From Nymphaea colorata (taxonomy: Eukaryota > Streptophyta > Magnoliopsida > Nymphaeales > Nymphaeaceae): a DNA stretch of 64,000 nucleotides. The stretch's first letter is position 1, and every line of letters begins with the position of its first letter. A model generated the notes under the pieces. That model ran no database searches and had not been told where the DNA came from. It saw only the letters and a program-made list of their open reading frames with translations. The position numbers were made by a program, and so were the translations under genes. This document shows positions 12,661-60,029 of this stretch, one piece after another. The stretch is from assembly GCF_008831285.2 (NCBI RefSeq), contig NC_045142.1, positions 6,367,608 through 6,431,607 on the forward strand, written 5' to 3'.

Positions 12661-12871
12661 CCCTTGAGAGAGAAATCCCGGTAAATCAACATCTCTTTTC
12701 CTTCTCTTCCATTATTCCTATCTCTGCTCATTCATTTGCGACAAGAAATTCCCGGTAAAGCTCCCTGCTTTGGCCAACAGTTCCTTTGCACTCAGTTGAT
12801 TTCTTCCAGCCCCTCTTCCTCCTTAAACTAATCGTCAACAATAGTTGGCATGCATCTCTATCACAATACCA

Positions 12872-13217
12872 TCACTGCCCATGACCGTAAGTTCCTCTAT
12901 CTTCATTGTCTTCTTTAAACAACAACAAAAATCAGAGACAAGAGTAAAAAGAGCAATGATCATGAGCAGAATGCTGGAGCCCAACTAGTAGGCCAGAAGC
13001 TGGCTCTTATGTTATAAAATGCTGTCACTTTGGACTCAACTTGTCTACTCGGCAGGTCAACTTGGTGACTCGGCTGAGTTTTATTAGCTTTTGCTTTTGA
13101 AGAAAAAAACAATATGTAGATTATGATTTAAGCATAAATGAAGCTATACATTGATCTAATTATTTATATAATCGAACAGATAGCAGGAGGTGGCAAAATA
13201 GGGGCAAAAAACATGAG

Positions 13218-13261
<44 letters not shown>

Positions 13262-13444
13262 TATTTTACCGTGGGGTTTGATGCAAAGGAAGCATGCGAA
13301 CATGAAGATGATGGTGACACAATAGAGGGCCACGAGGTGAACAACTTCTTTACCATGGGGTTTGTTGCAAAGGAAGCATGCGAACATGAAGATGATGGTG
13401 ACATAGTAGAGGGCCACTCCGGGAACAACTGCTAGGGGACCCAT
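12872..13444 (-). CDS. Small two-exon membrane protein, copy 1 (internal duplication)
   Basis: Exon 1 is 13,444-13,270 (ATG at 13,444) and exon 2 is 12,912-12,872 (stop TGA). The 357-bp phase-1 intron begins GTAAAATAC and ends TTTAAAG; it contains a (GA)n run. The joined frame predicts about 71 residues. It starts MGPLAVVPGVALYY, with a hydrophobic segment TIIFMFACFLC followed by a basic NKPHG turn. An exact 84-bp (28-codon) tandem duplication repeats the hydrophobic segment, so exon 1 is 175 nt against 91 nt in copies 2 and 3. Exon 2 starts with the family's EDNEDRG, but a small deletion brings an early stop, so most of the acidic tail is lost. Paralogues are at 34.8-35.2, 36.0 and 58.9-59.2 kb. 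Family and function are not recognised. Splice sites are inferred by comparing copies. Confidence 0.5.
13221..13259. repeat. (GA)n microsatellite
   Basis: 39-bp GA run in the intron of the small membrane-protein copy 1. It produces spurious LSLSLS frames on the minus strand. Confidence 0.95.
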
Positions 13445-13522
13445 ATATATACGTCTGTCTGGTGTAGGAGAACTAGACCAGTACCCAGAGAAAAGATGAG
13501 TATGGTAGGGGGATGTCCAGTC

Positions 13523-13523
13523 C

Positions 13524-13565
<42 letters not shown>

Positions 13566-19555: not shown

Positions 19556-19960
19556 TCAATCAGCTCTTCTACAAAAAAAAAAAAAATCATGTTGCTCTTG
19601 TGACGTTATGGTGAAAGGTTCATCTTTCATACATCTGAAGTTGGTGTTGCTGCACGTGAATCCAAATTGCTTTGGTTTTTTGTCATGCCTGTGTGAACTA
19701 ATTACATCATACCATTCATATTTAAATAAAACAAACTTCAAAGTCTTTGTATTAGTGACCTCCATAATGTATGTGTCAAATCCATAGTATACAACTTCAC
19801 TAATAACAAGATTCGTATCTCTTGAACTGGAGAAACTAGAGGTCAGTGCAATAATGAGTATATCACTATTCTGGCACTTTATGCAGATTTCTTTGCCCTT
19901 TACATGAAATTTAAACCCATTAGGTATGAAGCTCTTGTATTGCAATATAATTTTTCTAAG
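19556..19960 (-). pseudogene. CACTA transposase C-terminal region (DUF4216-like)
   Basis: The minus frame contains a pattern I recognise from the DUF4216 region found in CACTA transposon proteins: NSDILIIALTSSFSSSRD, VISEVVYYGFDTYIMEVT, LKFVLFKYEWYDV and KQFGFTCSN. In intact elements this follows the TNP2 transposase and DUF4218 regions, and that order is preserved here. A second minus frame at 19,231-19,518 (95 codons) may be its diverged continuation. No search was run. Confidence 0.65.
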
Positions 19961-20559
19961 AAGCTAAGACAACCATAAAATATCTTCTAGTATATGTTGA
20001 CTTTGATGGTCACATTGTCGACCAATCTATCACATAAAAAATATGAATAATAAATGTAATATATAGATTATTTGTAGAGCGAGTCAGTGGACTTCTATGA
20101 TACCAACACAAGTGTGAACTTGAAACCAATATGGAAATGTTGCTTGAATAAGTACACATAGGTTAAAGGGAACATGAAACCCACATATAATAAATTAATG
20201 AATATATCTAGCTGCCTAAAGGAATACTTATGCAAGATATCATTCCACTTCCAGATGATTTAATAATATGTACATATTCACCTGTTGGGGTTAAGGTGTC
20301 CAATAACACTACCATGCTTAATGGACGGCCTACTAGATTTACAATAAATTCATCTTCTCAATTCCCAAAAACATGTTTGTTGTTTCTTTTGGACCTATTG
20401 AATCTTGTTTCAAAGCTATGAAAATATGTTGAATAAAATGTCATGTACTCATCTACCAAATACCCTAGTACAATAGAACCTTTTGGTTGGCTCTTATTAT
20501 GTATGTAATCTTATGTTTCAATAAGCACCTACATAAAGATGGACCTAAATGTGTATGCA

Positions 20560-30353: not shown

Positions 30354-31869
30354 TGTTAATGACGTTTTGTAAACGGGTTGGGTTGGCCGAGCCCGGCTTG
30401 ATGCCTGATTAAAATATCATTATTCAAAAATTTTATAAAATACAAGTACATTTACACGTAAGTTTTTAAATATATTTTTTAAAGGGGGCGAAGGCCCATG
30501 AGAGCTCCCCTTAACTCCGCCCCTTGTTTTGCTTTTTTTTTTTTTTTATTGGAAATTGTATGTCCCTGCCATATGTGGTCATAAGTGAAACGATATTTTT
30601 TAAAATCTCTCGCTCGTTAACTCTTCTCTTGCTTTGATGCAAAACCACCACGTTAATGGCACTGTTCCATCGGAGTTTTGGCGTCAGCTGCCACGCGCTT
30701 GCGTTCTTTTCGCCGGTCATGGCTCCAGAACTCAGCGGCAGTTTGGCTAGTTTCTCACGGTTTCGCTTGTGTGGACAATTGCCCATACTCAACCACACAA
30801 TTTAGTTAAATGTCCAGTAGTTATTTGCTTATTTACATGAGGCTTTAACCGTAGATTTTTTGAAAGGTGACCCTTACTCACAAACTTTTGGCTCTGCCAC
30901 AGCCTTCTATTGTCGTCCCGTGTTTGCAGTGCCTTCAATCGTCATAAAGGACGAATTTTGCTGCATTTTGTTCACCGTATCTTAGGATGCAAGTCGCTCA
31001 CTTTTTTAGAGTAATCTACAAGCTTGAATCTATAACATCTTTGGCATTTCGCACTTTAAAAAATTGAAGTGATGTATGTTAAGAGCTTGTTCGATTGGAG
31101 GAACATTGGCTTTTTCACAATACTATCGCTCTCGCTGCTGAAGGTGGGGCGCGACCTCTTTTTCCACTTCATACATACAGAATGCATGATGAATCTATTC
31201 TAAAGAAACATTTTTATATGCATTCCTCTCACTTCACATCTCACAATGAACAATGGGTCTACAGTCATATTCTAGTCTTCAGTTCTCTGGGTAAAGCATC
31301 AATTTTTAGGGAATAATCTCAAGAGATTTATAAAGGGGTGGTTTTAGTGATTGGTTATCCTGTTCCCAGTATTTTTGAAGCTAAAACTTAAGCTACCATG
31401 GGTTTGGTTTGGTCTGGACATTACATTTGTATCAAAGCTGGTTCAATACTTAGACCTGAGGTCCATATATGTAGACACATATACCTTAATGGGGCACTTT
31501 GTTTGTCCTTCTAAGTGAGTACGATCCCAAGGACCGTCGGATTTAGTTTGCTTTACATTACAAGTCACCGTTGGGAGCCTCGATCTTCTTAGAAAGGTAA
31601 AATTTTCACATTTTCACCTTTGTCCTTATGGGAGGGTATCCTTAATTTTCTCACGTGAGGGTATTTTTTGCACCGGCGACAACGTGATTCGTCAATGGAG
31701 AGTGACAACAGTCCAGTGATGTGATGAAATGACGCCAGTCATGCGCCTTGAATCCCTGTAGTGGTTTTTTCTTTTTTCTTGGTGGGGATTTTATCTTTCT
31801 CTGATGGTTTTTAAGGTCAGCAAGAGAAGTCCAAGCAATTCTGCTTGTAATTCAATTCTATAAAAACTA
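30354..31869. other. Intergenic stretch, no gene
   Basis: Contains a T run at 30,531-30,547. A minus frame at 30,511-30,798 (95 codons) has balanced composition but no recognised motif. At 31,430 GTATCAAAGCTGG resembles a retrotransposon priming site, but it lacks an LTR beside it. Confidence 0.45.
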
Positions 31870-32515
31870 ATTTTGATTTGCATTGGCAAAATGATCAATT
31901 CCACATATAGTCTGACCCTAGTGCGTCAGTTCTTTTGCTTCAATTGCTAACTGGTTGTCAATTGTTTTTTCTGTAAAGCAATATAATGTGGCCCTTCCTC
32001 CTGCCATTTTTGCTGAACTTTATCTTGTCTGTAAAGCAATATAAATGTTCTTTCTCCAACCTTTGCAGAAGCACCAGCCTAGTGGTATATTGGACATTGC
32101 AAACACACTAAATGTTTGTTGTCTTGTTTCTCTTTTATATTTCCAATAATCCAACAGATATTCAGTTATTTGCATCACCATTTACTGCTTCAGCATATGG
32201 TGGATGTTGTTTGTTTGTGAAACTATTAACTAGTTTTATTGTTGGATTGTTCAAAATAAACAACCTAAGTCAAAGATAATACAAGCAATTCTCACGTTTA
32301 CTTAACTGTACCATAACATTGGCCAGTTATAAGATTTAAAATGTTGTGCCATTCTTTGTTCAGTATCCGTTTTATACTGACATTATTTTGACAGTTGCAT
32401 TGCGTGATGAAGCATAGTCACCTTTTGGTTCAAATGAGGCTGCAGGCCTAGCTGATTTCTGGGAAGAAGAATTTGAAGAACTACATGCAAATTATATGAG
32501 ACAGAGGTATGTATG
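31870..32515 (+). pseudogene. Unrecognised multi-exon gene fragment (E), copy 1
   Basis: Plus-strand exon-like pieces: SVKQYNVALPPAIFAELYLV (about 31,970-32,030), a TTTGCAG acceptor at 32,062-32,068 before KHQPSGILDIANTL, and 32,393-32,513 with SPFGSNEAAGLADFWEEEFE ending at a good donor, AGAG|GTATGT. The first piece is a membrane-like helix. A TAG replaces a sense codon just before SPFGSNEA, and the first exon runs into a stop after a deletion, so this copy is dead. Two minus-strand copies (37,868-39,066 and 61,085-61,928) preserve other parts. I cannot name the family. Comparison of copies shows intron/exon structure typical of a host gene, not a transposon gene. Confidence 0.5.
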
Positions 32516-32599
32516 TTGTTTAGTTTGACATGGCTTCTTGATTGTCATAGCTTTACATAGTGTCTTCATTGTCATATATTTGGCGATGAATTAAGAGAA

Positions 32600-34010
32600 G
32601 CCACCTGAGATCACTTTACTCTGGGTTTCATATATATATATATATCCATTATTGGTTACTCCAATTTATTATGTGTAGGTAATTTTACGTATAAATTTCA
32701 CTTCTTATAGATTATTTTGAGTATATAGTTCTTTATTCTTTAATATCCATGATATATGCTTCTTGAAAATATATACAAGTGCAAAACCTTCATGTTTACC
32801 ACAGAAAACAAAGATTTGAAACTCTGAGCTCGCACTCGCAGACACACGCACTCTCTATCTTCTCTTTTTCTCCTGGATTTTCGGAAAATTTCACTCTTTA
32901 TTAAATGACAGTATTTCATATTTAAATTGTACCAATTTTCTAATATGTCTAATAATAAAGGGCAGTGGCGGGCAAAGTGTTGTCATAATATCTTATATAT
33001 ATATATCAGAGTTTTGAATGGCTCAAGTCATGCATTTTATATTGTCATCATACCGACTTAAAAATAGATCATTTTGCTCAAGGTCAACCAAACTAAATGG
33101 TGCCCATTTGGAAATTCGAACATAAGATGGTGAAAGAAAGGTCCCTCCACGCGCTAATTGTGACTCAGCAAAAAGCATAACTAGGTAATTGAACCTACTC
33201 TCGTTGCATGTGGTTGGAGTTGGAAAACAGACAAATCTGCATTAGAATTTGGCTGCAACTTGAATATCTCTAAACATTAGTTGTCCTGAAACTTGCTTCT
33301 CCTTTCTACAAACATTAGAGAGTGAGTATCTAAAGCTTGCACTTGAGGCCCATTAAATTAGACAGAAGTCCAAATGCTGCTAAAAATTCTCGTGGGCATG
33401 ATTGAAAGACACCTTAAGACGGCGCTTTGGAGGCAAAATATGGTTTAAGGTGTGTTTGGGATGACGTCCAAAAGTTGGTTTTGGATTGACCAATACTTTC
33501 ATATGGCTGGTAAGTTTATGAAATATATAGAAGCTTTCTTGTGTATGGTTTCAGTGAAATTTCTATTTGAAATTAGGACTAAACAAAAATGCATGAAGTG
33601 AAAGAGCTAAAATACATAATTCTAATTTCAGCATACTCGACTTCATGCTCAAAGTGATATGTTGGGTCTAGAACATGCGAGTTGTTTGTCTTAGCCGAAA
33701 ATGCGCATCTGATTTAATAAAGAGAAGCCCACTTATACGGCAAAAATGGAAGGAAGGGTATGCTTATTTGTCAAAATGACTAAAATACTCCCTTTTTATA
33801 ATAATTGAAACACTGCTTTGCACTCAGCAACTTGGCCACCATTGCATTTCTCTATGGTGGTAAGCTTTCTTCTTTTTCTACTATCTATATGAATGTGTAG
33901 TTAAAGAGAGAGGGGGGACGGAGAGCGAGAGAGAGTGAGACGGTCGGAGAGTAGTTCGGTAAACTCATTTGATTTAGCGCTCAAGATAGTCATTTTTTAT
34001 TGAAAGGATA
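32600..34010. repeat. Diverged copy of 24.2-25.5 kb lacking the CACTA element
   Basis: Parallels 24,240-25,530 and 53,580-54,860. Around 32,765-32,860 it appears to join sequence similar to the left flank (44,470-44,549) and the right flank (from 53,551) of the block 2 CACTA element with nothing between, consistent with a pre-insertion site. Confidence 0.55.
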
Positions 34011-34319
34011 GACTGGTGTTTGAGAGGTCAATCGCCGGGGTTGTTGAAGGTGAATTTGTGATGCTCGGTGTACCTAGAAATTCGAAATTCTTGGAAAAAG
34101 AACTAATGGTCCACCCTTTATTAAAATTGTACTCCCTATCTAATTCCACATAAACTAAAGGCCGTCAGCCATGTAGATTGTTCTCTCACATCTGATTAGG
34201 CATGTAAGTTCCAGGTTTTGATCGAACAAAATGCCTGTTTCGGTAGTTTGAATGCATGTTCTAAAGGAAGATGCACTTTACATTTGATATCTATGCATAT
34301 TAATCTAAATGTAAGCAAC

Positions 34320-34838
34320 CCATTGTCTGATCTTCCTACCTACCTGTGTTCTATTCCCTGGACATTCTTTCTTGACCGTTCTTCTCTTTTCCCAATTTTT
34401 CTAATTTCCCCAATGATTTAGTCGGAGGCGTTAGGAAATTGACAAATAAAATGATGCTCCACCTTGATGTGGAACTGAGGAAAACAATTTTTCTCTTAAG
34501 GGTGAACTTCTCTTTGTCTTCATTTGCATCGCGCTCCTTATTAAATTTAATTTCTCCAAGCACCAAACCTTTTAAATATAGGCTGCACTGACGACTCTAA
34601 CTTGATCAGCTACTAATTAGTTCATGAGATGTTGGGGGCACTCGAACAACGACTGAACTTTCTCAATTTAATATATATTACTCAAAATCATCATTCAATT
34701 TAAACATAAGTAACATTTGGCTTTGAACTCTAACAGGAAAACAGAAAAATAAGCATGTTATAATTAACTATTGGTTGGCCTTGAAAGGCTATCAGCACTC
34801 CCTAAAAGGTTTTAAACCCCACACAAATCCAGGTACAA
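34320..34838. other. Spacer with a third copy of the TATA-box region
   Basis: Mostly unique sequence. At 34,548-34,605 it holds a diverged copy of the promoter-like phrase (CCTTTTAAATATAGG) also found at 35,411 and 36,695. From 34,605 it becomes segment D, matching 58,668 onward. Confidence 0.55.
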
Positions 34839-35158
34839 TCAGTGTGCGCTCAATCCGTTGGCTTCTTCCTCCTCAAACCGAGTAGTTGGCATCTCTATCA
34901 CCATCACACCATCACCGCTAGCTCCTCCATGACCATCAGCTCCTCGATCTTCATTATCATCTTTAAGCAACAACAAAAGTCAGAACCAATAAAAAGAATT
35001 CCATGAATGAGGTCAAGCATGTTGCAGGTCGTGGGTTCCAGAAAAAGAGAGAAAGAGGGTACTTTACCTTATGGTGCGTTGCAGATGAAGCACACAACCA
35101 TGAAGATGATGGTGGCGCAGCAAAGGGTCAGGAGGACAACAAGTACGAGGGGACCCAT
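34839..35158 (-). pseudogene. Small two-exon membrane protein, copy 2 (premature stop)
   Basis: Exon 1 is 35,158-35,068: ATG, then MGPLVLVVLLTLCCATIIFM and VVCFICNAP, a single hydrophobic segment of about 23 residues. Codon 30 is TAA (35,071-35,069) where other copies have TAC, so translation ends at the splice junction. The 107-bp intron (35,067-34,961) starts GTAAAG and ends TTAAAG, identical in length to copy 4. Exon 2 (34,960-34,839) remains open in frame: DDNEDRGADGHGGASGDG, MVIEMPTT, then an acidic run, ending at TGA sooner than copy 4 because a stretch is deleted. Either this encodes only the 29-residue membrane peptide, or it is a pseudogene. Confidence 0.5.
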
Positions 35159-35410
35159 ATGTGTACAACGTCTGGTTGGAGTAGTTGGAGTACTTTACGG
35201 ATATCCAAAGTAAAATGAGGTGTTGAGATTAACAAACATCTGATGGGCATAAAATTCTTTGAAAACAATCAAAGAAGAAAACATTCGCACGCTAAAACAT
35301 GAAGTAAAAAAGAGACGAATCGCCCAAAGTAGCTTAGGTATATACGGAGTACCTTTTTGTCTAATCAGCTGCTTGATCACCTTATTAGTTTAGTTTATCC
35401 AAGAACCAAA

Positions 35411-35425
35411 CCCTTTAAATATAGG
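35411..35425 (+). promoter_or_regulatory. TATA-like box, left arm, pointing into the palindrome
   Basis: CCCTTTAAATATAGG, conserved in four places (also 34,566, 36,695 complement and 59,928 complement). By comparison with copy 4, transcription would start about 30 bp downstream and run into the left arm. The motif is nearly symmetrical, so direction is inferred from context. Confidence 0.35.
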
Positions 35426-36006
35426 CCACTCCGACGGCTCTAACTTGATCCCCCGACACTCCTTTCTTACAAGGCCTCCATTTGATACCTTCACTTCACT
35501 CGCTGCAGATGCTGCACGCTTGAGTAGGTAACCCTTCCTCTCCCTCTCCCTCTCTCTCTCTCTTGTCATGCTTTGCCTTCATTACAAAGCAATTCTCTCT
35601 TCCTCTATTCTTCTTTTTTCAACGAAGACTGATGGTTCTATCCCTCTAAGGAGGTCGTTCTTCAGAAGTAAATTGCTGTGGCGTCACAATTTTATTCTGT
35701 GATTTTGTTGAGCACCCGACGTGAGACAACAGAGAAACCTGTCCTGGTTCGGCCAGACTCCTCCCAAAGTTCGCCAAATTATGGGGAGCTTTTCAAGCGA
35801 TTTCAAGAACCAAGGCAGCTGAAGCGGAAATCAGTCTTTTGTTGGGTTCCGTATATACCTAAGCTAGTTTGGGCGATTCATCCCTTTTTTACTTCATGTT
35901 TTAGCGAGCGAATGTTTTCTTCTTTGATTGTTTTCAAATAATTTTATGCCCATCAGATGTTTATTAATCTCAACACCTCATTTTGCTTTGGATATTCGTA
36001 AAGTAC

Positions 36007-36097
36007 CGTATGATGTGTTGCAGAGGAAGCACACAACCATGAAGATGATGGTGACGCAGCAAACGGTCAGGAGGACAACAAGCACCAGGGGACCCAT
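36007..36097 (-). pseudogene. Small membrane protein, copy 3: exon 1 only
   Basis: ATG at 36,097. The 91-nt exon encodes MGPLVLVVLLTVCCVTIIFM followed by VVCFLCNTSY and ends CATACG at 36,007, the same phase-1 boundary as the other copies. Immediately beyond, at 36,006, the sequence switches into the left arm of the palindrome: the donor GT is formed by GTACTT of the inverted arm, and intron and exon 2 are absent. Upstream, the right arm supplies the normal 5' region. It therefore has a promoter and first exon but no tail. A transcript reading through would fold back on itself. Confidence 0.6.
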
Positions 36098-36694
36098 ATG
36101 TGTAGAACGTCTGGTTGGAGTAGTCGGAGTACTTTACGGATATCCACAGCAAAATGAGGTGTTGAGATTAACAAACATCTGATGGGCATAAAATTCTTTG
36201 AAAACAATCAAAGAAGAAAACATTCGCACGCTAAAACATGAAGTAAAAAAGGGACGAATCGCCCAAACTAGCTTAGGTATATACGGAACCCAACAAAAGA
36301 CAGATTTCCGCTTCAGCTGCCTTGGTTTTTGAAATCGCCTGAAAAGCTCCGCATAATTTGGCGAACTTTAGGAGTCTGGCCGACCCAGGACAGGTTTCTC
36401 TGTTGTCTCACGTCGGGTGCTCAACAAAATCACAGAATAAAATTGTGACGCCACAGCAGTTTACGGCTGAAGAACGACCTCCTTAGAGAGATAGAACCTT
36501 CAGTCTTCGTTGAAAAAAGAAGAATAGAGGAAGAGAGAACTGCTTTGTAATGAACGCAAAGCATGACAAGCGAGAGAGAGAGGAAGGGTTACCTACTCAA
36601 GCGTGCAGCATCTGCAGCGAGTGAAGTGAAGGTATCAAATGGAGGCCTTGTAAGAAAGGAGTGTCGGGGGATCAAGTTAGAGCAGTCAGTGTGG

Positions 36695-36709
36695 CCTATA
36701 TTTAAAGGG
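36695..36709 (-). promoter_or_regulatory. TATA-like box, right arm, pointing into the palindrome
   Basis: Complement of CCTATATTTAAAGGG, the mirror image of the box at 35,411. On the minus strand it faces copy 3 exon 1, about 600 bp away, in the same arrangement as the box at 59,928-59,942 upstream of copy 4. Confidence 0.35.
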
Positions 36710-36787
36710 TTTGGTTCTTGGAGAAACTAAATTAATTAGGTGATCAAGCAACTGATTACAAATAAAAGTACTCCGTATATACCTAAG

Positions 36788-37104
36788 CAAACTCCTAGTG
36801 CCTTCTTCGTTTTATGTGACTTTTTTTCGCCTTTTTTGTTTTTTTCCATCGACCTTTTGCTGCGTGCTTTCCTCAGTTCCACGAATGGCAGGAGATTTTG
36901 GTTGGCAGAATTGCTTGGACTTCTTTCTTCAAGTCGCGAAAGCCCGCCTGCCAATGAGGCCGCACATCAGAAGCCTTTTTTCTACTCCTGTTGTACACCC
37001 TCTTTGGTCGCATAGATAAAACAAATATAGTGGGCAACTATGCTCAAAGGCATGCAGCCTCTTTGAGAGGTGAAGGTTGGTTGCTTTGTATCTTTCAGCA
37101 CATT
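36788..37104. other. Unique spacer in the nested inverted repeat
   Basis: A plus-strand open frame runs through 36,740-37,015 (RRFWLAELLGLLSSSRESPP visible), with overlapping open frames in other phases. No family is recognised and no paralogue is seen. Confidence 0.4.
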
Positions 37105-37867
37105 TCAATGAAATTAGATTAATATGCATAGATATCAAATTTAAAGTGCATCTTCCTTTAGAACATGCATTCAAACTACCAAAGATACATTTTGTTCGAT
37201 CAAAACCTGGAACTTACATGCTTAATAAGATGTGAGAGAACAAACTACATGGCTGACGGCCTTTAGTTTATGTGGAATTAGATAGGGAGTGCAGTTTTAA
37301 TAAAGGGTGGACCATTAGGTCCTTCTCCAATGAATTTCGAATTTCTAGCAACAACCGAGCATCAGAAAATTCACATCCTACAACCACGGCGGTTGACGTG
37401 ACGTCTCAAACACCAGTCTATCCTTTCAATATCGAGGCAAATGAAAATGACTATCTTGATTACTAAATTAAATGAGTTTAAACTTGTACCGAACTACTCT
37501 CTCTCTCTCTCTCTTTAACTACACATTCATATAGATAGTAGAAATGATTGAAAGCATACCACCATAGAGAAATGCAATGGTGGCCAAGCAACTCGCGTGT
37601 TCTAGACCCAACATATAACTCCAAGCATCAAGTCGAGTAAGCTGAAATTAGAATTATGTATGTCAGCTCTTTCACTTCTTGCATTTGTGTTTAGTCCTAA
37701 TTTTGAATAGAAATTTAACTGAAACCATCCACAAGAATTTCATCAACTTACAAGCTATAAGAAAGTACTGGTCAATCAAGAAAATGGCAAACAATGTGAA
37801 CTCTAGTATTAAAAAAAACTATATTTTTAGCTTAAATTGCTTGTCATTTGTTAATATTCAGTTCCAT

Positions 37868-39066
37868 CAAATTCTTCATCCCAGAAATCAGCTAGGACTG
37901 CAGCCTCATTTGAACCAAAAGGTGACAATGCTTCACCATGCAATGCAACTGTCAAAATAATATCAGTATAAAACGTATACTGAACAAAGAATGGCACAAC
38001 ATTTTAAATCTTATAACTGGCCAATGTTATGGTACAGTTAAGTACACGTGAGAATTGCTTGTATTATCTTTGACTTAGGTTGTTTATTTTGAACAATCCA
38101 ACACTAAAACTAGTTAATAGTTTCATAAACAAACAACAACCACCATATGCTGAAGCACAAAATGGTGATGCAAATAACTGAATATCAATCGGATTATTGG
38201 AAATATAAAAGAGAAACAAGACAACTAACTTTTAGTGTGTTTGCAATGTCCAATATACCACTAGGCTGGTGCTTCTGCAAAGGTTGGAGAAAGAACATTT
38301 TCTCTCTCCCGAGGAACTCTTAACAATGTGGGCAGCAATCACTACATAGACAAGATAAAGCCCAGCAAAAATGGCAGGAGGAAGGACCACATTATATTGC
38401 TTTACAGAAAAAGCAATTGACAACCAGTTAGCAATTGAAGTAAAAGAACTGGCGCACTAGGGTCAGACTATATGTGAAATTGATCATGTTGCCAATGCAA
38501 ATCAAAATTAATATTTATAGAATTGAATTACACGCATGTCTATACATTCTCAAGGACTGCATGAAACCCTTTTCTTTTTCTTTATAAAGTAACCATAGTT
38601 TTGAGCACCCTACCCCAATTCTCATAAGATTACAACCTAGCTAATTGGTATTTAAAGCACGTTTTTCAATTATAATATAGAAAGAAGCTTATGTATATAT
38701 GTCTTTGCTAAGAACTGTCGAACAGAAATTTTAAGTTAAATTGTTGTCACTAAGTTAAAAATGTATGCATATTAACTACTATACATATAGTATTTATCAA
38801 TTATTTGCTTTTACGACAAAGTACAACAGGATTTTGTGTTTGTTTATGTTACATTTACCTCATTATTATAATAAAAGGTACTGAAGATCTGAAACATTAC
38901 AAGATAACTAGAGCTACTGAAGATATATATGCAGGAAACAGGTCACTAGTGCTGCCATTTTGTTGGGAAATGTTGTCTTCAGCTTGATCGTTCATCCTGG
39001 TTTTGACAGCGAGCTGGTTCTCATAATTGAGATGGAAATATTTCAAACCTGGATTATGTATGTTCC
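37868..39066 (-). pseudogene. Unrecognised multi-exon gene fragment (E), copy 2
   Basis: Minus-strand pieces in transcription order: 39,030-38,930 with LNYENQLAVKTRMNDQAEDN and ISQQNGSTSDLFPAYIS; about 38,435-38,280 with the membrane-like helix NVVLPPAIFAGLYLVYVVIA followed by AHIVK; then KHQPSGILDIANTLK before a GTTAGT donor (about 38,275-38,230); then 37,945-37,868 with SPFGSNEAAVLADFWDEEF, where homology stops abruptly at the U arm. The acceptor of the first piece is TTTTCAG in copy 3 but damaged here. This is the best preserved copy. Product not recognised; possibly an integral membrane protein, to judge from the helix. Confidence 0.5.
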
Positions 39067-40879: not shown

Positions 40880-42158
40880 AAAAGATGCCCCCACAGTAGT
40901 AGAAGGAAGAGGGAAGGAAGGCGTCTGTCATGGCTTCTTTTTGCTGGACAGCAGGTCAGGAGAAGATGGTCAGCACGCACTGAGGCACTTTCCACATGAA
41001 GAGGACCAATATGGATCCCCAAGTTGATCCACTCAACTGTTTAAGTTGGTGGTGTTGGGCCAAAAGAAGCTCATGGCATATGGAGACTGGTAAAAATGAT
41101 CTTGGGCTGAGCGAGATGACAACATTGTGGGTCCAGAGTGTGTGATTGAGGGTCGTACACACTACCCGAGATCGATGCCCTCGGCGTGCACTCTGTCACC
41201 CTCCCTACCTTTTGTTCTCTCATAACCCTACCTGAGCTCGACTCCTTCAACATGCACCACGTGTTGGAGCAAATCTTGTTTTAGCGCCAGAACTACCTTA
41301 TTTTGTTGTAATGTCTGGCCCTTTTTTCATCATTTCATAGATAAATTTGTCATATTGATCTAAGAAAGATGCATGAGGGTGGAACATATTACCATCTTTG
41401 CCGACACTTGATCTACCCCCATAGATATGTTTTATTAGATCACCGCCACAACTTCGTCTCCTACCTTAAGAGCATCTTTTTGGGATCCGAGTGAAGGCCA
41501 AACACTCTCCCTTCCCCCTCCCCCTAAGTTTAGGGTTGCTAGACCCCCTGCCAGCCCCCAGCCGGTCCATTGCGCCAACGTCTTGGGGGATCTATCTTAA
41601 GGGCATATTTGATTACTGAAACAATGGTTTCAGTGTGTACTTCCACCATACTGGACCTACACCTTAAAGCTAAGTGATAGAAGTGGGACTGTTGCCCCAC
41701 TGACTACCTCCACTGGATATCAAAGTCAAAAAAGTTGTACAGAACGGGTAGAAAAAGCTCTTGAACTCTCTCAGCATGTGTATGAGTGCTTTTTTAAAGT
41801 TATTCGACCGACCAAATATGGAGCTAAGAGTGGCACTTTCTCTGTTTTCAGACATTCTTTTAGGACGTCCTGTGGTTCACTCTGTTCTTGATGATTCTTT
41901 CAAGTCCTGGGAAACTTGTTCGTATGTGGCAGCGACAAGATTAGTTGACAATTTTCTAAACGAGCCAAACAGTCGGCTACCTTTGTGGCCTGATGATTTT
42001 TCAAGTTTCTGTCGTTAAAAAGTGTCGCAAAAGGTTCATTCCGTTGTTAAAAACTGTGGTCAAACAATTGTCATTGCTAAATCACATTATCCCGATGATT
42101 TTTAGCAATACAAAAAATAAAAAACCATCTCAGTATAGAGGTTAGCCGCTAATTTCAG

Positions 42159-42162
<4 letters not shown>

Positions 42163-42198
<36 letters not shown>
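42163..42198. repeat. (TA)18 microsatellite
   Basis: Longer than at the paralogous place in copy 1 (6,137-6,151). Confidence 0.95.
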
Positions 42199-42200
<2 letters not shown>

Positions 42201-42460
42201 CCGGACATGAGAATTGAGCATGATTTGTTGCTGCAATAGGAGAAGGACAAGACGGCAAGAGCACGTTGTAATATCTGGGCAGTGTCTTGGCTGGACGAGT
42301 AAATGCGAGGGCGGTACTGGCTCACATGTGAAAGGTAAGTTTGCGTGTGAGCCCATCAAAGTTTCTAGGGACAAATCCTTTATTGCGAGTCTGAGAACCT
42401 GCATTTTGCTTTTTACTGGTTACCACAGGATAAACCCTAAATAAAGAGCGAGGGAGAGAG

Positions 42461-42601
42461 ATGGGCTCAGACGCAGCGGCTGCCTCCACTGGGTCCATGG
42501 TCCCCAGCTTTGGCTCTCTTTTAGAAAGTGGTCATTTATTAGTGGTGGAGCAAAAAATTTTGGCGAGAAAAGTCTCAAATACCTATATTGTTAATTGCTG
42601 A
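42461..42601 (+). CDS. Candidate small ORF, paralogue of 6,422-6,610
   Basis: 46 codons starting MGSDAAAASTGSMVPSFGSL, with the same AAACCCTAAATAAAG leader and start context as copy 1. Lacks 16 and 5 codons relative to copy 1 without shifting frame, then ends at TGA. May be a first-exon remnant or chance. Function unknown. Confidence 0.25.
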   Translation: MGSDAAAASTGSMVPSFGSLLESGHLLVVEQKILARKVSNTYIVNC

Positions 42602-43389
42602 ATACAAAATAATTATGTAAATAAGTACGTGTAGTTTGCTAAGAAAGTCGACTAGTATATTTCCTTGGCATGGCTGGACTTATGCCACGGACTTGTGTCA
42701 CTGACTAATTTTCACTTTAACTCTAATTTGAAGTTTCTGGAGCTTTATTTAGGTGCTAGATTTAACTGTATTGATCTCAAAACACAATTGCTTCTTTCAC
42801 CATGATATGCTTATTAAAATGGTCCGCAACTAACGAATCCAGTGTTAACTTTTTCTTTTCTTGGGCAGTTGGCTGAAGGAAAAGCCGGCTAGCTGCTTTC
42901 AAGAGCCGGTCGTAAGTTCGATTCTTATGACCTGTTCTTATAGGTCGTAAGTTTCTGTGTGTGTGTGTGGACCAGAACACTTAATATGCCAACTTAGAGA
43001 CCATTTGATGGCTACAGAAAAAATTCCATGAACTTTTCGCTAAGGAAAAAGTTCCTGGGAGACCCGTAGAAGTAAGCTTGTTTTCACCTGGGTCCGACAT
43101 TTTACACCATGCTATTTTTTCCCAGATCCCGAATGAATTTGGGATGAAAATTAGGCGCGTTTGATGTGCTGATAAAAAGGTCTGAAATTTCAAGAAAAAA
43201 AAAAAAGTCCCCAAGTCGTTTTTTTTTGCCATCCCCTAAAAGATACATGACACTTGATTATGGTTTTTTCCTTTTCAAATATGAATGAATAGTTTCAGAG
43301 TAAAAGCTCTAGTTGTGCTGGTTTACGCTGCTATAGTTGTGGTTGCTATGTTGATGCTTGAAAAAACACTAAGATGGATTGTTGAACTT

Positions 43390-43505
43390 TGAGAACATTG
43401 ATGAAGCTTTGCCGGGCCATGAGGAGCCATAATGAGATTTGAACTTGCAATCTGACTAACGGGCACGTCTTTTAACTTAAAGCCGTTATCAAATTCTCCT
43501 GAATC
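43390..43505 (-). mobile_element. tRNA-derived SINE-like sequence, copy 2
   Basis: Paralogue of 7,690-7,820. The B-box-like element reads GTTCAAATCTC here, one base further from consensus. Confidence 0.35.
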
Positions 43506-43660
43506 TTTCATCAATGTTAATGCATCAAACTATTACTTTTTTTCTCTCCGAAGAAGTTTTTAAAACAGAGTTATTGTTTTTTATGTTACTTACTCACATT
43601 TTTATAGTCATTTCAGGCAACGTACTGTAAGATGCTGCACATATAATAAAGAGTTGACAA

Positions 43661-47800: not shown

Positions 47801-48106
47801 TGAAGGAAGTCTTTCTAACTCCCTCACCAAACAACACTACAAAAGGGCACGTTAAAATAAAACTTGAAAAGACCTCAACACTTTCATTCTTTTTTTCACT
47901 ACCTGATTACTCGCATGGAACAACTATTTAAAGAAAAAAAGAAAAGAGAAAAAACTACCCACTAAAGCCACTTGCCAAAACCAACCTCATTTTGTGGACA
48001 CGTAACCACTATCCTATTCTTATGGCTAAAGAAAAGAAAACAAAAAAAACCCCATCACCACACGTTCACACTATCTCAACTTCATACACGTTCACATTAA
48101 CTAACA
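47801..48106 (-). repeat. copia 3' LTR
   Basis: 306 bp. The plus strand starts TGAAGGAAGTC and ends CTAACA. Near-identical to 52,205-52,509. Confidence 0.97.
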
Positions 48107-48118
48107 TTTCTCCCCCTT
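48107..48118 (-). other. copia polypurine tract
   Basis: The minus strand reads AAGGGGGAGAAA directly abutting the 3' LTR; it primes plus-strand DNA synthesis. The last bases overlap the end of the pol frame. Confidence 0.9.
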
Positions 48119-51100
48119 AATGTGAAAAATCTTGTACTCCAATTGCTTCTCGAAAATTGAAAAACTTTGATGGTGGTAGTGCTTTTGTAAAACCATCCGC
48201 AACTTGCTCTTTTGTGAAACATTGCTTCAACTCAATTTCTTCTTTCTCAATCACGTCTCTAATAAAGTGATAACGTAACTCTATATGTTTAGTCATTCCG
48301 TGAAATGATGGATTTTTTGCCATGGAAATAGTAGATTTGTTATCACAGTATAACTGAGTTGGATTCTCTTGCATCAATTGAAGGTCTTCTAAAATACGTC
48401 TCATCCATATCGCTTGACATGCAGCAGCAGTAGCAGCAATATACTCAGCTTCCAAAGATGATAAGGCTGTTGAACTTTGTTTCTTTGAGCACCACGACAC
48501 AACACTTGAACCAAATTCAAATACAAAACCACTTGTACTTTTCCGATCATCAACAGAACCTGCCCAATCACTATCAGTATATCCAAGTAAACCAAAGTTA
48601 GTCACAGGTTTACAAAAAATTCCATAGTTGAGTGTAGATTGAATGTAACGAAGAATTCTTTTTGCTGCACCAAGATGTTGCACTGAAGGATCTTGCATGA
48701 ACCTTAATATCAAACTCACTGAAAACACAATGTCAGGTCTGGTATGTGTAAGTACATCAATGCACCGACCATGCTTCTGAAATATTTTTCATTTACTTTT
48801 GCCATTCCATCATCTGCATTCAGCTTTTCGTTGGTGTTCATGGGAGTTGCACAACCATTACAATTCATCATTTTAAACTTTTTCAGAGTATCTAATGCAT
48901 ATTTTCCTTGCGATATAAAGATTCCTTCATCACTTTGTACTACTTGAAGACCAAGAAAGTAATGCAACAATCCCAAATCAGACATTTCAAACTCCCTCAT
49001 CATACAATTTTTAAATTCTGCAATAAGGCTAAAAGAAGTGTCAGTATAGATAATGTCATCCACATAAACACTTACAATAAGTAAATGATTTTCACTCACT
49101 TTGACATAAAGAGTTGGCTCACTATCACTTCTTTGAAAGCCATTTTGATGAAGAAATTTATCAAGACGACTATACCAAGCACGAGGAGCTTGTTTAAGTC
49201 CGTATAATGCCTTTTTAAGTTTATAAACCTTGTCTTCTTTTCCTTTAATTTTAAATCCAGGTGGTTGATCAACATACACTTCTTCATTCAAATAGCCATT
49301 TAGGAAAGCAGACTTGACATCAAACTGAAAAACTTTCCATTTAAATTGAGCAGCAATAGAAAGAACCATTCTTACTGTCTCAAATCTTGCAACAGGTGAA
49401 AACGTCTCAGTAAAATCAATTCCATATACTTGCACAAAACCTGTAGCAACCAGCCTTGCTTTATATTTTTTCACGTTACCTTTAGCATCATACTTCACTT
49501 TATAGACCCATTTTACTCCAATTGGTTCCTTTCCCGACGGCAACTTAGAGAGCTCCCATGTGTCATTCTTTTCTATGGTTTGTATTTCCTCTTTCATAGC
49601 ATTCATCCAATTTTTGTCTACACATGCTTCATCAAAAGTTGAAGGTTCTATAACAGCAAAAGCAAATGCACACTTATAAATGTCATTTAAGGATCGTACC
49701 TTTCTTGGAGGAGTTTCTTCAGAAATGGATTCAATACCTTCATTGATCGTCTCCTTCATGGCTTCATCTTTCTCCTTTGGTTCTTCGTCAATATTATTTG
49801 GATTCACTTCTGCCCCATCAACTTGGAGTTTCATGGTTTCATTCTTAACCCAATCCCAACAAGCTTTTTCATCAAATATAATGTCTCTTCTTATAATCAT
49901 CTTCTTAGTGATAGGATTATAAAGACGATAACCCTTAGTTTCACTACTATAACCAATGAAAATGCATTTTTCACTCTTCTTATCCAACTTGCTTCTTTCA
50001 CTATGATCAATTAATGCATATGCAACACATCCAAAGACTTTTAACATACTTACATTTGGTTTGCGATTCCACCATGCTTCGAATGGAGTTTTGTTTCTGA
50101 CTGCCTTTGTTGGAGAAATGTTGAGAAGATATACTGCCGTATGGATTGCTTCAGCCCAAAATTCACTTGGTAATTGTTTTTCATTTAACATGCTGCGTGC
50201 CATTTCCACTACTGTCCGATTTTTCCTTTCGGCCACACCATTTTGTTGTGGGGTCTTCCTTACTGTAAACTGTCTACGAATGCCATGATTTTTACAAAAT
50301 AAACCAAATTCGTCAGACAAAAATTCTCCCCCTTTATCCGTACGTAGTATATTTATTACATTCCCACTTTCTTTTTCTGCAAACATTTTAAACTCTTTAA
50401 ATTTATCCATTGCATCAGATTTGCGACTGAGAAAATATACCCAACTCATTCTAGTGTAATCATCAGTAAATTGCAAAAAATACTTGCTACCATTTAATGA
50501 AGAAGTTTTCATTGGACCGCATATGTCAGCATGAACTAATTGAAGCGGTATTTTAGCTCTCCATGATTTTCCAACTTGAAATGGTAATTTATGTTGTTTA
50601 CCATAAATACACCCTTCACATACATCATCATGACAATTAATAGATGGCAGTCCGTATACCATACCTTTTTGATGTAAGAGTTTCAACCCATTAAAATGAA
50701 GATGTCCATATCTCACGTGCCATAGCTTGGAATCATCAATTTTTGTCATAAAAGCATTTGTCTCAAGAGGAAATATTTTATTTCGAACCATATTTACTTT
50801 CGCAAGAACTACACCACTTTTATTTTTAATTTCACAAGCATCATTTTCAAATAAAAGTGTGTACCCTTTTTGAACCAGCTGCCCAACACTAAGCAAATTT
50901 TGAGCCAACCCGAAAACGTAATACACATCATTAATAAATTTTTTCATACCTGTTTCTGATTTGATGATAGCAGTTCCTTTGCCCTTCACACTTATTCTAT
51001 TATTGTCTCCAAGCCATACATCCAACTGTATAGTCTCATCAATATCTTTGAAAAAACTCTTGTTACCAGTCATATGATTACTGCAGCCGCTATCTACAAA

Positions 51101-52090
51101 CCAAACTTCACTCTTGCAACGGTTAGCATCCATAGTTGTAAGAAATAAATTCTCATTTTCTTCTACAAAACTAACTTGTTGTTTTGCCTTTTCAAAACAT
51201 TTAGCTTCTATATGACCAAACTTCTTGCAAAAGTTACATTGTTTTCCTCTAAAGTACTGATTTTGATTACCTTTTCCTGTTGTGTCATGTGTTTTATGGA
51301 AATTTTCATGGAATCTTCCACGTCCTCTACCATAACCACGAGTGACTCCTCTATAGCCTCCTCGTCCTTGACTCCTTCCTTCATTTCTTTGATCATAGCT
51401 TCCATTATTCTCTTTTGAAAACTCTATCTTTGTTTGGGAAACTTGCTCTATTCCTTTTTCTGTTGAACTGTTCATGCGTTGCTCATGTGCTAAAAGAGAC
51501 CCTATTAGTTCATCAATAGAATAAATAGACAAATCCTTGGATTCTTCTATTGCAGTGACAACATGATCAAATTTAGAAGGAAGACTTCTTAACACCTTTT
51601 CAACCACCTTTTGCTCGGTTATGGCTTCACCGAAACTCTTCATTTGATTTACAATAGTAAAGAGTCTAGAAAAATAATTTTGAACGGACTCACCAGTTTT
51701 CATGCAAAATGTTTCAAACTCTCTCCTTAAGATTTGGAGCTTAACTGTAGTAATCTTCTTATCTCCATGAAATTTTTGTTTGAGTTATAGCCACGCTTCA
51801 CTTGACTTTTCTGCACCAGCAATAGTTGGGAAGACAGTCTCTGATACAGCCTGCTGCAATACTGAGAGTGCCTTTGCATCTTTCTTCCGAAATTCCTTAA
51901 CATCAATTTTCTCTATTGACTTTCCTGTTGCCTTTGATACTTCAGTTTCTGCATAACCATTCTCAACTAACTCCCAAATATCTTGTGAAATGAAGTAAGT
52001 CTTCATTTTGATACTCCAAAACTCATAGTTCTCACCATTAAAAATAGGCACTAAGGATTGGGATAAATTGAGAGTATTTGAATTAGCCAT
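48117..52090 (-). pseudogene. copia gag-pol polyprotein, interrupted by one stop and one frameshift
   Basis: ATG at 52,090 (an earlier in-frame ATG lies in the LTR) opens gag (MANSNTLNLSQ), halted by a TAA at 51,785-51,787; the same frame then continues unbroken for over 1,000 codons. Counted from the Met at 51,703: zinc knuckle C156-x2-C159-x4-H164-x4-C169; protease DSG at 204-206; integrase zinc motif H329/H334/C362/C365; catalytic D393, D456, E492 (D-x35-E); reverse transcriptase from about 714, with YVDD at 880-883. Near 48,716-48,760 a single-base loss shifts the frame. RNase H continues in another frame (48,728-48,117) with YTDSDWAG and SSLEAEYIA, and ends beside the polypurine tract. 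All catalytic residues are present, but the copy cannot make a full polyprotein. Confidence 0.95.
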
Positions 52091-52188
52091 ACCAGCTTTC
52101 AAAAAATAACTCTTACCAATAGCACGCGATTTGGAGTTCCTTGCTTCTGCAATGCTCCATGATACTTGAGATGCCCACGCAACCTGGC

Positions 52189-52200
52189 GCTCTGATACCA
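52189..52200 (-). other. copia primer-binding site
   Basis: The minus strand reads TGGTATCAGAGC, complementary to the 3' end of plant initiator tRNA-Met, 4 nt inside the 5' LTR. Confidence 0.95.
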
Positions 52201-52204
52201 AGAT

Positions 52205-52509
52205 TGAAGGAAGTCTTTCTAACTCCCTCACCAAACAACACTACAAAAGGGCACGTTAAAATAAAACTTGAAAAGACCTCAACACTTTCATTCTTTTTTT
52301 CACTACCTGATTACTCGCATGGAACAACTATTTTAAAAAAAAAAGAAAAGAGAAAAAACTACCCACTAAAGCCACTTGCCAAAACCAACCTCATTTTGTG
52401 GACACGTAACCACTATCCTATTCTTATGGCTAAAGAAAAGAAAACAAAAAAAACCCATCACCACACGTTCACACTATCTCAACTTCATACACGTTCACAT
52501 TAACTAACA
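52205..52509 (-). repeat. copia 5' LTR
   Basis: 305 bp. Promoter-side LTR for the minus-strand element. The target duplication TAGCA follows at 52,510-52,514. Confidence 0.97.
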
Positions 52510-52736
52510 TAGCACACTAAAATGGAGGAAACATAATGTGATCAAGGCACCCAAGTTCTTAAAATTTCATGGGTGCGCTATGATGACATACAATATCAAA
52601 CAAAGGAAGAGCATTCTTTATAAAATGCTGAGTCGATGAGATCCTGCATGTAGAGAGTAGATGTTTCGTCCATCTCGAATCTATGGACGATGAGGCTCTC
52701 ATTGTCGCCCAACTTCAGCTCACCCATTAATCAAAC

Positions 52737-57290: not shown

Positions 57291-57635
57291 GTACTCACTC
57301 TAATGTTTATGTAAACGAGAAGCGAGTTTCAGGACAACTACGCATGGTGGTATGGTACTTCTTCACTGAGAAGATAATGGTTCGCTCTTTCATTTTTTTT
57401 TTTTATGTTTAAGCTACTTCTCTTGGAAGTTGAAATTGCCCACACAAAAAAGGATCACATTCCCATGGATCACTTATCCTAGTTGCAGCTATATACGGAT
57501 CAGATTCATATATTGTCTTATTGCGTTTCTGTTTTCTTTTTAGAACTGGATCGTTCCCTAGTACTGTTTTTGGTGGATCCGGTGTAGACACAATTGTGCC
57601 CAACAAAAACTTGACTCCCAAATTTTTTGGAAAGC

Positions 57636-57638
<3 letters not shown>

Positions 57639-57724
<86 letters not shown>
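57639..57724. repeat. (AT)43 microsatellite
   Basis: 86 bp of perfect AT. The matching place in the inverted arm (60,300-60,319) has about 10 units, and block 1 has none. It accounts for IYIYIY frames. Confidence 0.97.
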
Positions 57725-57728
<4 letters not shown>

Positions 57729-58895
57729 ACTTTTTTGTTAGTCTAACATTTCTTTTTCTCAAAACGGCCTCAAAAAGAGGCTTGATATGTATCGCGATGG
57801 TGGAACATAAAATTAAGTGGCCATGTCATCTTGAGTATGTGGGGGCAAAGTACACGGGGGACACCCTCAATAATTTGAGAGCGACTGAGTTGCTCATGTC
57901 ATTTTTGTGTTATATTCACACTCAAGTGCTTGTTTCGTACTTGCCTTCTTGTTCGCTTGTTTAATAGAAAATGACAAACTCTGAAGACGCTTTTTAGTGA
58001 TAAGTTCGTGTTCTGTTGCCTTCTTGTTACAATACATTATAAAAGTTTCTATTGCATTGGCGTCATAAAAGTTCTCTTTAGAATTATGAAGTTTTAAACA
58101 TTTACACAATACATACACCTCAGCATTTGCCAGGGAAAATATATAATTGCTACATCTGGAAACGATGTCAACCTGACTGGCGATCCTGTAAACTATAACG
58201 AATTTAAACCCATTCAACTTCAAATATATCTACAGAGTGTGAGAGAATACTATAGGTTTTAAGTGAAGGAAATAAGAGGGGCAATGGAAATTATTTATTT
58301 TTATGTAAAATAAATTTTACCGAAATTACAACATGTATTGTTTTATGAACTTTTGAAGATGACGTGCCGTGTCATACTTTGAATGACAGAACAATGCTTG
58401 TTGAAATAGCTGAATGAGAAGTTTGTTTATGGGATTTTTTTTTTTCTTTTCTAATAACACAGGAAAAGGTGCTCACGCTGCCTTAATAACTGGAAACGTC
58501 GATGGTGGAAAAGCGCGTCTCAGGCGTTGTCAAAGTTCCAGTGATCAATGGTGGTATTGTATATTTTGAGACAGCTCGTGTGCAAGAAAGAGTAAAGCAG
58601 AAACATGGTGTCTTCGTCGTCTTCTTTAAAAGGCAATGTAAAGTTGGCCGCCGTCATTTGAACCAGAATGAGATGTTGGGGGCACTGGAACAAGGACCGA
58701 ACTTTCTCAATTTAATATACATTACTCAAAATCATCATTCAATTTAAACATAAGTAACATTTCGTTTTGAACTGTAACTGGAAAACAGAAAAATTAAGCA
58801 TGTTATAATTAACCATCAGCTGGCCTTGAAAGGCTATCAGCACTTCCTGAAAGGCTTTAAACCCAACACAAATCCAGGTACATCACTATGTTCTA

Positions 58896-59245
58896 CTATT
58901 CCTCCTCCTGCCTGCTCAACTGTGCGAAGAAATGTTCTATAAAGCTCTCGGATCTGGCGAACAGCTCTTCTGCGCTCAATCCGTCGCCTCCTTCCTCCTC
59001 CAACTGAGTAGTTGGCATCTCTATAACCATCGCACCATCGCCGCTGGCTCCTCCATGACCATCTGCTCCTCGATCTTCATTATCTTCTTTAAGCAACCAG
59101 AAAAGTCAGAGGCAATAAAAAGAATTTCAAGAATGAGGTCAACCATGTTGCAGGTTGTGGGTCCAAGAAAAAGAGAGAAAGAGGGTACTTTACCGTATTG
59201 TTTGTTGCAGAGGAAGCACACAACCATGAAGATGGTGGGACCCAT
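58896..59245 (-). CDS. Small two-exon membrane protein, copy 4 (best preserved frame)
   Basis: Exon 1 is 59,245-59,194 and exon 2 is 59,086-58,896 (stop TAG). The 107-bp intron 59,193-59,087 starts GTAAAGTACC and ends GCTTAAAG. The spliced frame is 243 nt, 80 residues: MGPTIFMVVCFLCNKQY, then EDNEDRGADGHGGASGDG, MVIEMPTTQLEEEGGDG, LSAEELFARSESFIEHFF and AQLSRQEEE. So a very short hydrophobic N-terminus is followed by an acidic tail with an amphipathic C-terminal helix. Relative to copies 2 and 3, exon 1 lacks exactly 13 codons of the membrane segment, still in frame, so membrane insertion is doubtful. A TATA-like box about 690 bp upstream (59,928) and donor/acceptor-like sites between suggest spliced 5' leader exons. 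Family not recognised; conservation of frame, intron phase and intron length across copies is the evidence that it is a gene. Confidence 0.55.
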
Positions 59246-59420
59246 ATGTGTACGTCTGGTTGGAGCAGTCGGAGTCCTTTATGGATATCCAAAGCAAAAT
59301 CAGGTGTTGAGATTAACAAACATTTGATGGGCGTAAAATTCTCTGAAATCAATCAAAGAAAAAAACATTCGCACGATAAAACATGAAGTAAAAAGGGACG
59401 AATCGCCCAAAGTAGCTTAC

Positions 59421-59636
59421 GAAATACAACTGGAGGCCTGAAAGGCTCGGGTTTTCCGGTGATGGATAGCCAAACAAGTTGATGTTTTCTTCAAATGGTG
59501 CCTGGCCTGAACACAGAACTGACAGTTTGGTTAATTTCTCTAGCGAATGAGGAACTTTTGGCACTTTAGCTTTAACGGAACCCAACAAAATGACTGATTT
59601 CCGCTTCAGCTGCCTGGGTTCTTGAAATCGCCTGAA
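59421..59636 (-). CDS. Candidate upstream exon of segment D, copy 2
   Basis: The minus frame runs FQEPRQLKRKSVILLGSVKA, KVPKVPHSLEKLTKLSVLC, then PFEENINLFGYPSPENPSL and ends at a GTAAGC donor after LQLYF. About 190 bp of it is missing from both palindrome arms of segment D copy 1, where the frame jumps to a different sequence after RKSV. No start codon is fixed, and a single-base loss further upstream breaks the frame relative to the left arm at 35,678. Perhaps leader or pseudo-exon. Not recognised. Confidence 0.3.
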
Positions 59637-59927
59637 AAGCTCCCCACCACAGGTTTCTCTGTTGTCTCACGTCGGGTGGTCAACAAATCACAGAATAAAA
59701 TTGTGACGCCACAGCAATTTACGGCTGAAGAACAACCTCCTTAGAGTGATAGAACCTTCAGAATTCGTTGGAAAAGAAGAATAGAGGAAGTGAGAACTGC
59801 AAAGCATGATACGAGAGAGAGAGAGAGAGGAGGGGTTACCTACTCAAGCGACCAGCATCTGCAGCGAGTGAAGTGAAGGTTTGGAATGGAGGCTTGTAAG
59901 AAAGGAGTATCGGGGGTATCAGTGTGC

Positions 59928-59942
59928 CCTATATTTAAAGGG
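59928..59942 (-). promoter_or_regulatory. TATA-like box upstream of small-protein copy 4
   Basis: On the minus strand CCCTTTAAATATAGG. About 90-100 bp downstream is a good donor, GAGTAG|GTAACC (exon end 59,840), then a CT-rich intron-like stretch. Conserved with 35,411 and 36,695. Confidence 0.35.
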
Positions 59943-60029
59943 TTTGCTTCTTGGATAAACTAAATTAATAAGGTGATCAAGCAGCTGATTAGACAAATAA
60001 AGGTACTCCGTATATACCTAAACTAGCTT

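Follow-up and report, generated by a model that had tools for sequence, protein, structure and literature searches.

The palindrome at this locus is, judged by its sequence, a real inverted duplication of gene-derived DNA. We consider it probable that the 5' half of a small gene, here called D, was inversely duplicated within D itself by a copying accident and that the product is now most likely a drifting by-product. The features that carry this reading are collected in Table 1, where the window is the whole 64,000-nucleotide stretch of Nymphaea colorata DNA that was analysed. Start sites, splice sites and exons were inferred solely from the TATA box, a donor-like site and open frames. We refer to the sequence next to exon 2 as B' and to the segment comprising the intron, the presumed 5'UTR exon and the promoter as C.

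Table 1. Palindrome, junctions and copies of gene D, with positions counted from the first base of the window.
Feature	Position	Strand	Description
Left arm	35332-36006 (675 bp)	+	Inverted copy of D promoter, presumed 5'UTR exon, intron and B'
Loop	36007-36128 (122 bp)	-	Presumed D exon 2, open frame MGPLVLVVLLTVCCVTIIFMVVCFLCNTSY
Right arm	36129-36788 (660 bp)	-	Same segments of D as in left arm, oriented as in the gene
TATA-like box, left arm	35414-35425	+	Exact TTTAAATATAGG, pointing inward
TATA-like box, right arm	36695-36706	-	Exact TTTAAATATAGG, pointing inward
Presumed 5'UTR exon, left arm	35450-35527	+	Ends AG/GTAACC; start estimated from TATA box
Presumed 5'UTR exon, right arm	36593-36670	-	Same donor sequence as in left arm
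Insert	35349-36287		939 bp, 17-bp direct repeats on either side
17-bp motif at junction J1	35332-35348	+	GCTTAGGTATATACGGA
Junction J2	36004-36010		Inverted B' meets direct B; 3-bp TAC overlap at 36004-36006, read from alignments
Third inverted promoter fragment	34506-34607	+	Exact TATA at 34571-34582; 81% identity to 36670-36769
Outer inverted repeat	33831-34308		Partner 37114-37588, 91.9% ungapped identity
35-kb D copy	34624-35348	-	Partial copy: presumed exon 2 with a TAA close to its end, truncated exon 3 (C-terminal deletion) and 3' part
59-kb D copy	58668-60025	-	Fullest copy, a whole unit: has the promoter, a presumed exon 2 shortened by an in-frame deletion, and an exon 3 coding for the full acidic tail
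Distant D copy	12700-13560	-	70-77% identity over matched pieces; related frames, interrupted

The open frames suggest that D is a small gene on the minus strand and encodes a small protein. Presumed exon 2 specifies a hydrophobic stretch (MGPLVLVVLLT..CCxTIIFMVVCF) that is found in the loop and the 35-kb copy; an in-frame deletion has shortened it in the 59-kb copy. The acidic tail encoded by exon 3 of the 59-kb copy has SAEELFARSESFIEHFFAQLSRQEEE at its end. For this tail we considered DUF761 (PF05553), which we take to be a family of small plant proteins, but the exon-3 tail had no match to any Pfam family up to E=10. A composite D protein and the frame of the 13-kb copy gave only weak Pfam matches, below the curated cut-offs, the best being PRIMA1 (E=0.036) and Tmemb_185A (E=0.021). 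An inverted C lies directly upstream of the 35-kb copy, which would therefore lack its own forward promoter at that place. No match to the promoter segment C was found for the 13-kb copy, the most distant one, in which the hydrophobic exon carries an 84-bp tandem duplication (13265-13430). On the minus strand of the 59-kb copy, a 105-aa open frame (59352-59666) runs through about 150 bp that are absent from the palindrome copies. It looked leucine-rich by eye, but an LRR-like reading was rejected, as the frame matched no Pfam family up to E=10; a comparison with the PDB gave a single chance-level match (E=1.3).

The original prediction had described a palindrome with arms of about 660-675 bp, about 95% identity and a 122-bp loop, with a TATA-like box near each outer end pointing inward, and both points were confirmed. 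Identical bases occupy 630 of the 660 ungapped columns (95.5%) and mismatches the other 30; the alignment also has two gaps, one of 12 bases and one of 3. The arm-arm BLAST match (bit score 1020, E printed as 0.0) is far above chance. The two boxes are the same TTTAAATATAGG, which recurs exactly at just two further places in the window, 34571-34582 (+) and 59928-59939 (-). Read on the plus strand, the left arm runs from promoter to intron. Since the loop corresponds to exon 2 and the arms to B' and C, the two TATA boxes are, on this arrangement, one promoter of the parent gene that was duplicated. The donor-like AG/GTAACC is present in the left arm, the right arm and the 59-kb copy. Special preservation of the exon was also considered and rejected: a perfect run of 100 bp is not unusual, being reached by a fraction of 0.147 of 20,000 random placements.

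The segments of the locus are ordered A-B-(C B')inverted-B-C. When the insert was deleted in silico, the D unit became colinear with the 59-kb copy apart from several indels, the largest of about 150, 90 and 39 bases, and 1036 of 1118 ungapped columns were identical. Besides its copy at J1, GCTTAGGTATATACGGA occurs at 36271-36287 (+), 35848-35864 (-) and 36772-36788 (-), and these four ends are the only exact copies in the window. A copy with one mismatch marks the outer end of the 59-kb C at 60007-60023 (-), and copies with four mismatches occur at three places elsewhere. At J2, the presumed exon-2 donor reads GTACTT; the 35-kb and 59-kb copies have GTAAAG instead.

The three copies of B' agree against the 59-kb copy at nine sites and therefore form one family; with the 59-kb copy as the one outgroup, these common sites are not assignable to a branch. 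Private differences occur at five sites in the inverted B', two in B1 and one in B2, the second direct copy, and one further site groups the inverted B' with B2. The ungapped identities are alike for B1 and B2 (95.1%), for B1 and the inverted B' (95.0%) and for the two arms. On these similar divergences the inverted and direct copies may well have arisen in a single event, although the site that the inverted B' has in common with B2 does not speak for it. Between GCTTA and CGGA, the palindrome copies have GGTATATA, where the 59-kb copy has about 150 bp instead. With other bases at the inner site of the 59-kb copy, the 17-bp pair is not necessarily an ancestral feature. It may have been created when the outer end served as template for the eight bases of GGTATATA.

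To account for this anatomy, we propose a replication accident in which copying of B arrived at the 17-bp motif and jumped to the inverted copy of the motif at the outer end of promoter segment C. Copying would then have run backward through C and part of B, and a forward switch at a 3-bp match would have allowed B and C to be completed, giving the segment order stated above. The expected product is a 660-bp palindrome with the D promoter at both outer ends and presumed exon 2 in the loop.

A similar organization is found in the DUP-TRP/INV-DUP rearrangements of human PLP1/MECP2, for which there are replicative template-switch models, FoSTeS/MMBIR and ODIRA. In PMC4352052 and PMC10766186, these rearrangements have two junctions, one in inverted repeats and the other with little homology. 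The present locus likewise has an inverted copy between direct copies, the middle of the triplicated segment being the inverted one, and shows the same two junction types, with a 17-bp inverted repeat at J1 and 3 bp of homology at J2. It differs in being only about 1 kb in size, in lying in a plant genome, in being old and diverged, and in using a 17-bp inverted repeat at the locus rather than a long low-copy repeat. ODIRA, with an inverted triplication at the start and later rearrangement, is favoured in PMC10766186. Either ODIRA as described there or a two-step history, with an inverted copy followed by tandem duplication, could produce a near-identical sequence outcome.

Two other origins of the palindrome were weighed against a copying accident within D. 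Palindromes are a known outcome of library or polishing errors, which is the general reason for considering a fold-back chimera in the assembly. Of the 30 arm differences, 25 could be polarised, 13 as changes of the left arm and 12 as changes of the right; three lacked an outgroup base and two were ambiguous. A copy artefact or chimera is not expected to show polarised differences divided in this way, nor arms separated by 30 mismatches and two gaps; we rejected it on the independent mutations in each arm and give it a negligible probability. A foldback or Pack-MULE-type transposon that captured D, formed by the palindrome or by the larger inverted repeat at 31.8-34.3 / 37.1-38.5 kb, is also very unlikely. 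The C segment does terminate in a 17-bp inverted repeat, and the outer repeats share a repeat that is dispersed in the window (at about 24-25, 27-28, 40, 54, 56-57 and 63 kb). With an E cut-off of 1e-3, however, the inner arms have no partners other than the D copies, simple CT/GA repeats and the 34.5-kb promoter fragment, and no inverted pair of outer arms surrounds the 59-kb D, where there are partial matches at 56.4-57.3 and 61.1-61.9 kb. Moreover, removal of the insert regains the whole D unit, and a check by eye for a target-site duplication, for C alone, gave an AAACT match one base out of register.

Further inverted repeats enclose the inner palindrome. One pair, 31842-32476 / 37867-38536, has 94.8% ungapped identity. 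The larger inverted repeat of which it is a part, 31842-34308 / 37114-38536, shares the dispersed repeat, with its copies at about 24-28, 40, 54-57 and 63 kb. The divergence K is 0.054 for the 31842/37867 repeat and 0.086 for the 33831/37114 repeat, compared with 0.047 for the inner arms. By divergence, the 33831/37114 repeat and the 34.5-kb fragment appear older than the inner arms, and the 31842/37867 repeat is not distinguishable from them in age. A younger inverted repeat (57493-57998 / 60032-60465, 98-99% ungapped identity) flanks the 59-kb D, and its 60032-60465 half starts eight bases past the motif that ends C at 60023. This repeat is possibly a third inversion at the same place, and inverted duplication seems to be recurrent at gene D. 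A broader proposal would make the outer end of the D promoter a hot spot of fold-back copying with three separate inversions: the inner palindrome, the repeat at 57.5-58.0/60.03-60.47 kb, and the outer repeats together with the 34.5/36.7-kb fragment. Self-promoting hairpin loci would have been made there repeatedly, and one of them would target promoter/intron DNA of its paralogue, as a proto-siRNA gene whose mode of birth is still legible. We regard that proposal as improbable.

Transcription from either TATA box, as the original prediction stated, would give a long hairpin, which would be near-perfect and has a computed energy of about -1020 kcal/mol. Folding of 1343 nt from the presumed start sites gave minimum free energies of -1023 (plus) and -1041 (minus) kcal/mol. 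The long self-complementary arms that characterize siRNA hairpin loci, able to fold as RNA, are thus present in the computed structures. The two arms have 230 exact 21-mers in common. As the near promoter is not expected to be transcribed, pairing would extend only from the presumed start site onward. Much of one arm would be lost if the presumed intron were spliced out; the GTACTT donor at J2 may favour read-through.

The same prediction had the hairpin matching D copies 2 and 4, which we took to be the 35-kb and 59-kb copies. This holds for parts of both copies and fails for their coding exons. Exact 21-mers matching the arms amount to 61 of 1338 in the 59-kb unit and 81 of 688 in the 35-kb unit, where all lie within 35212-35312. 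None of the 841 in the 13-kb copy match, and with low-complexity words removed no other arm 21-mer match was found elsewhere in the window. The stem covers 35190-35348 of the 35-kb copy and 59274-59419 plus 59566-60025 of the 59-kb copy. The target interval suggested at 34.8-35.2 kb therefore could not be upheld, as nearly all of it is outside the stem, and 35065-35189 matches the loop side and not the duplex. Because the stem consists of promoter, 5'UTR and intron, it has no exact 21-mers in common with presumed coding exons 2 and 3 (0/50 and 0/178 in the 59-kb copy, 0/79 and 0/95 in the 35-kb copy); in the putative 5'UTR exon of the 59-kb copy, 8 of 48 match exactly. The 21-mers that overlap the loop match exon 2 at 12 places in the 59-kb copy and at 8 places in the 35-kb copy, the loop being outside the duplex. 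The absence of stem 21-mers from presumed coding exons suggests that any action would be mainly on promoter, 5'UTR and intron. Exact matches in coding exons matter for the targeting of mRNA, whereas action directed at DNA does not require them.

DNA that has long been methylated is expected to lose CpG and gain transitions. The differences between the arms comprise 12 transitions and 18 transversions, and C>T or G>A accounts for 8 of the 25 changes that could be polarised. We found no excess of transitions in the arms relative to two pooled sets of window duplicates (Fisher p=0.19 and 0.70), in a comparison of low power whose pools held 4 and 7 of 52 duplicate pairs, hand-chosen as larger tandem or inverted duplicates. 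The CpG observed/expected ratios of the arms are 0.69 and 0.79, whereas 660-bp windows average 0.53, with 21% and 10% of them reaching the two arm values; thus no loss of CpG was seen in the arms, again with low power. These values weakly disfavour long-term methylation of the arms.

The base composition and the 21-mer matches both bear on whether the palindrome is an active silencing locus, in which convergent promoters yield a hairpin and 21-24 nt siRNAs that repress a D paralogue, comparable to soybean I and Mu killer. A long duplex with so many exact 21-mers between its arms, together with the exact matches to the 59-kb and 35-kb units, argues for such a function, and MIR163, as described in PMC1790633, is a precedent for a promoter-bearing inverted duplication. 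Against it stand the lack of exact 21-mers in the presumed coding exons of either copy and in the 13-kb copy, the match of 8/48 in the 59-kb 5'UTR exon, the ratio of transitions to transversions, the CpG values, and drift that is equal in both arms. Taken together, an active silencing locus is unlikely. That some siRNAs are made from the palindrome is possible, at a little short of an even chance, and they would perhaps act mainly in cis or on paralogue promoter/intron DNA. Meaningful control of the 59-kb copy by the palindrome is quite unlikely; instead of an established regulator of paralogue mRNA, the palindrome is most likely a by-product. A search of the window for described miRNA families gave 0 Rfam matches at gathering score, and a new miRNA would be absent from Rfam.

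The divergence K of 0.047 between the arms compares with 0.007 between the ends of a Copia element in the window and about 0.07 between the arms and the 59-kb C. Substitution rates of 0.65-1.3e-8 per site per year were assumed, and at these rates the palindrome would be roughly 2-4 million years old.

According to Allen et al., young MIRNA loci reportedly arise from inverted duplication of gene sequence. The palindrome is similar in that its arms derive from a gene family and the parental promoter was duplicated too, as is described for MIR163 in PMC1790633. It is unlike young MIRNA loci in that its arms consist of promoter, UTR and intron, the exon is in the loop only, and two promoter copies converge. 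For maize Mu killer, PMC3440606 describes an inverted duplication of a gene's 5' portion with the TIRA end at both outer ends, to which the palindrome is again similar, whereas the halves of Mu killer are about 1.3 kb, extend from TIRA into mudrA, and silence according to a genetic test. The same paper ties silencing to short antisense transcripts and failed silencing to spliced read-through sense transcripts, a pattern that calls for caution before a working hairpin is assumed. The soybean I locus (CHS1-3-4) is also an inverted repeat of gene copies with paralogue targets (PMC3804491), but it is a 27-kb chalcone synthase cluster with siRNAs and a seed-coat phenotype. If the palindrome works at all, it would by analogy resemble promoter-bearing inverted duplications that seed siRNA/MIRNA loci. 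From its sequence alone, it is an unexceptional example of the inverted duplications that can give rise to siRNA/MIRNA genes, and as a rearrangement it fits a known type. If transcribed, it would be a well-preserved promoter-bearing hairpin with both junctions still recording its birth, and it would connect template switching with the model in which new small-RNA genes come from inverted duplications. Otherwise, it would be an ordinary scar within a duplicated gene cluster.

The window was also examined for other genes and elements. A tRNA scan with the bacterial code found none in the window, and neither did a search for Rfam families. Of 154 listed stop-to-stop frames, 146 were compared with Pfam at E up to 0.01, and the single match, to DUF960, was weak (E=0.0045). 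Five of the other eight were scanned separately, and 13159-13431, 58899-59105 and 59093-59383 were outside the scan as such. The list took in frames of 68 aa or more, other than simple-repeat frames and those with starts at 48.0-52.3 kb, and would therefore have missed short exons. A frame at 19559-19963 (-) resembles DUF4216 (E=8e-7, just under the curated cut-off) and is presumably a remnant of a CACTA transposon. A Copia retrotransposon occupies 47801-52510, with ends (47801-48107 / 52205-52510) identical at 304 of 306 ungapped columns. It has long frames on the minus strand, of which the one scanned, 48719-51784, matches Copia gag, integrase and RT models, and it was inserted into a duplicate of 21.8-30.4 kb, namely the copy at 46.5-58.5 kb. 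The Copia element and the DUF4216-like frame give the window the character of plant DNA. Another segment is present in three partial copies (4568-7966, 40985-43653 and 61925-62719), which indicates that several units are repeated within the window, with pieces of them lost or inverted.
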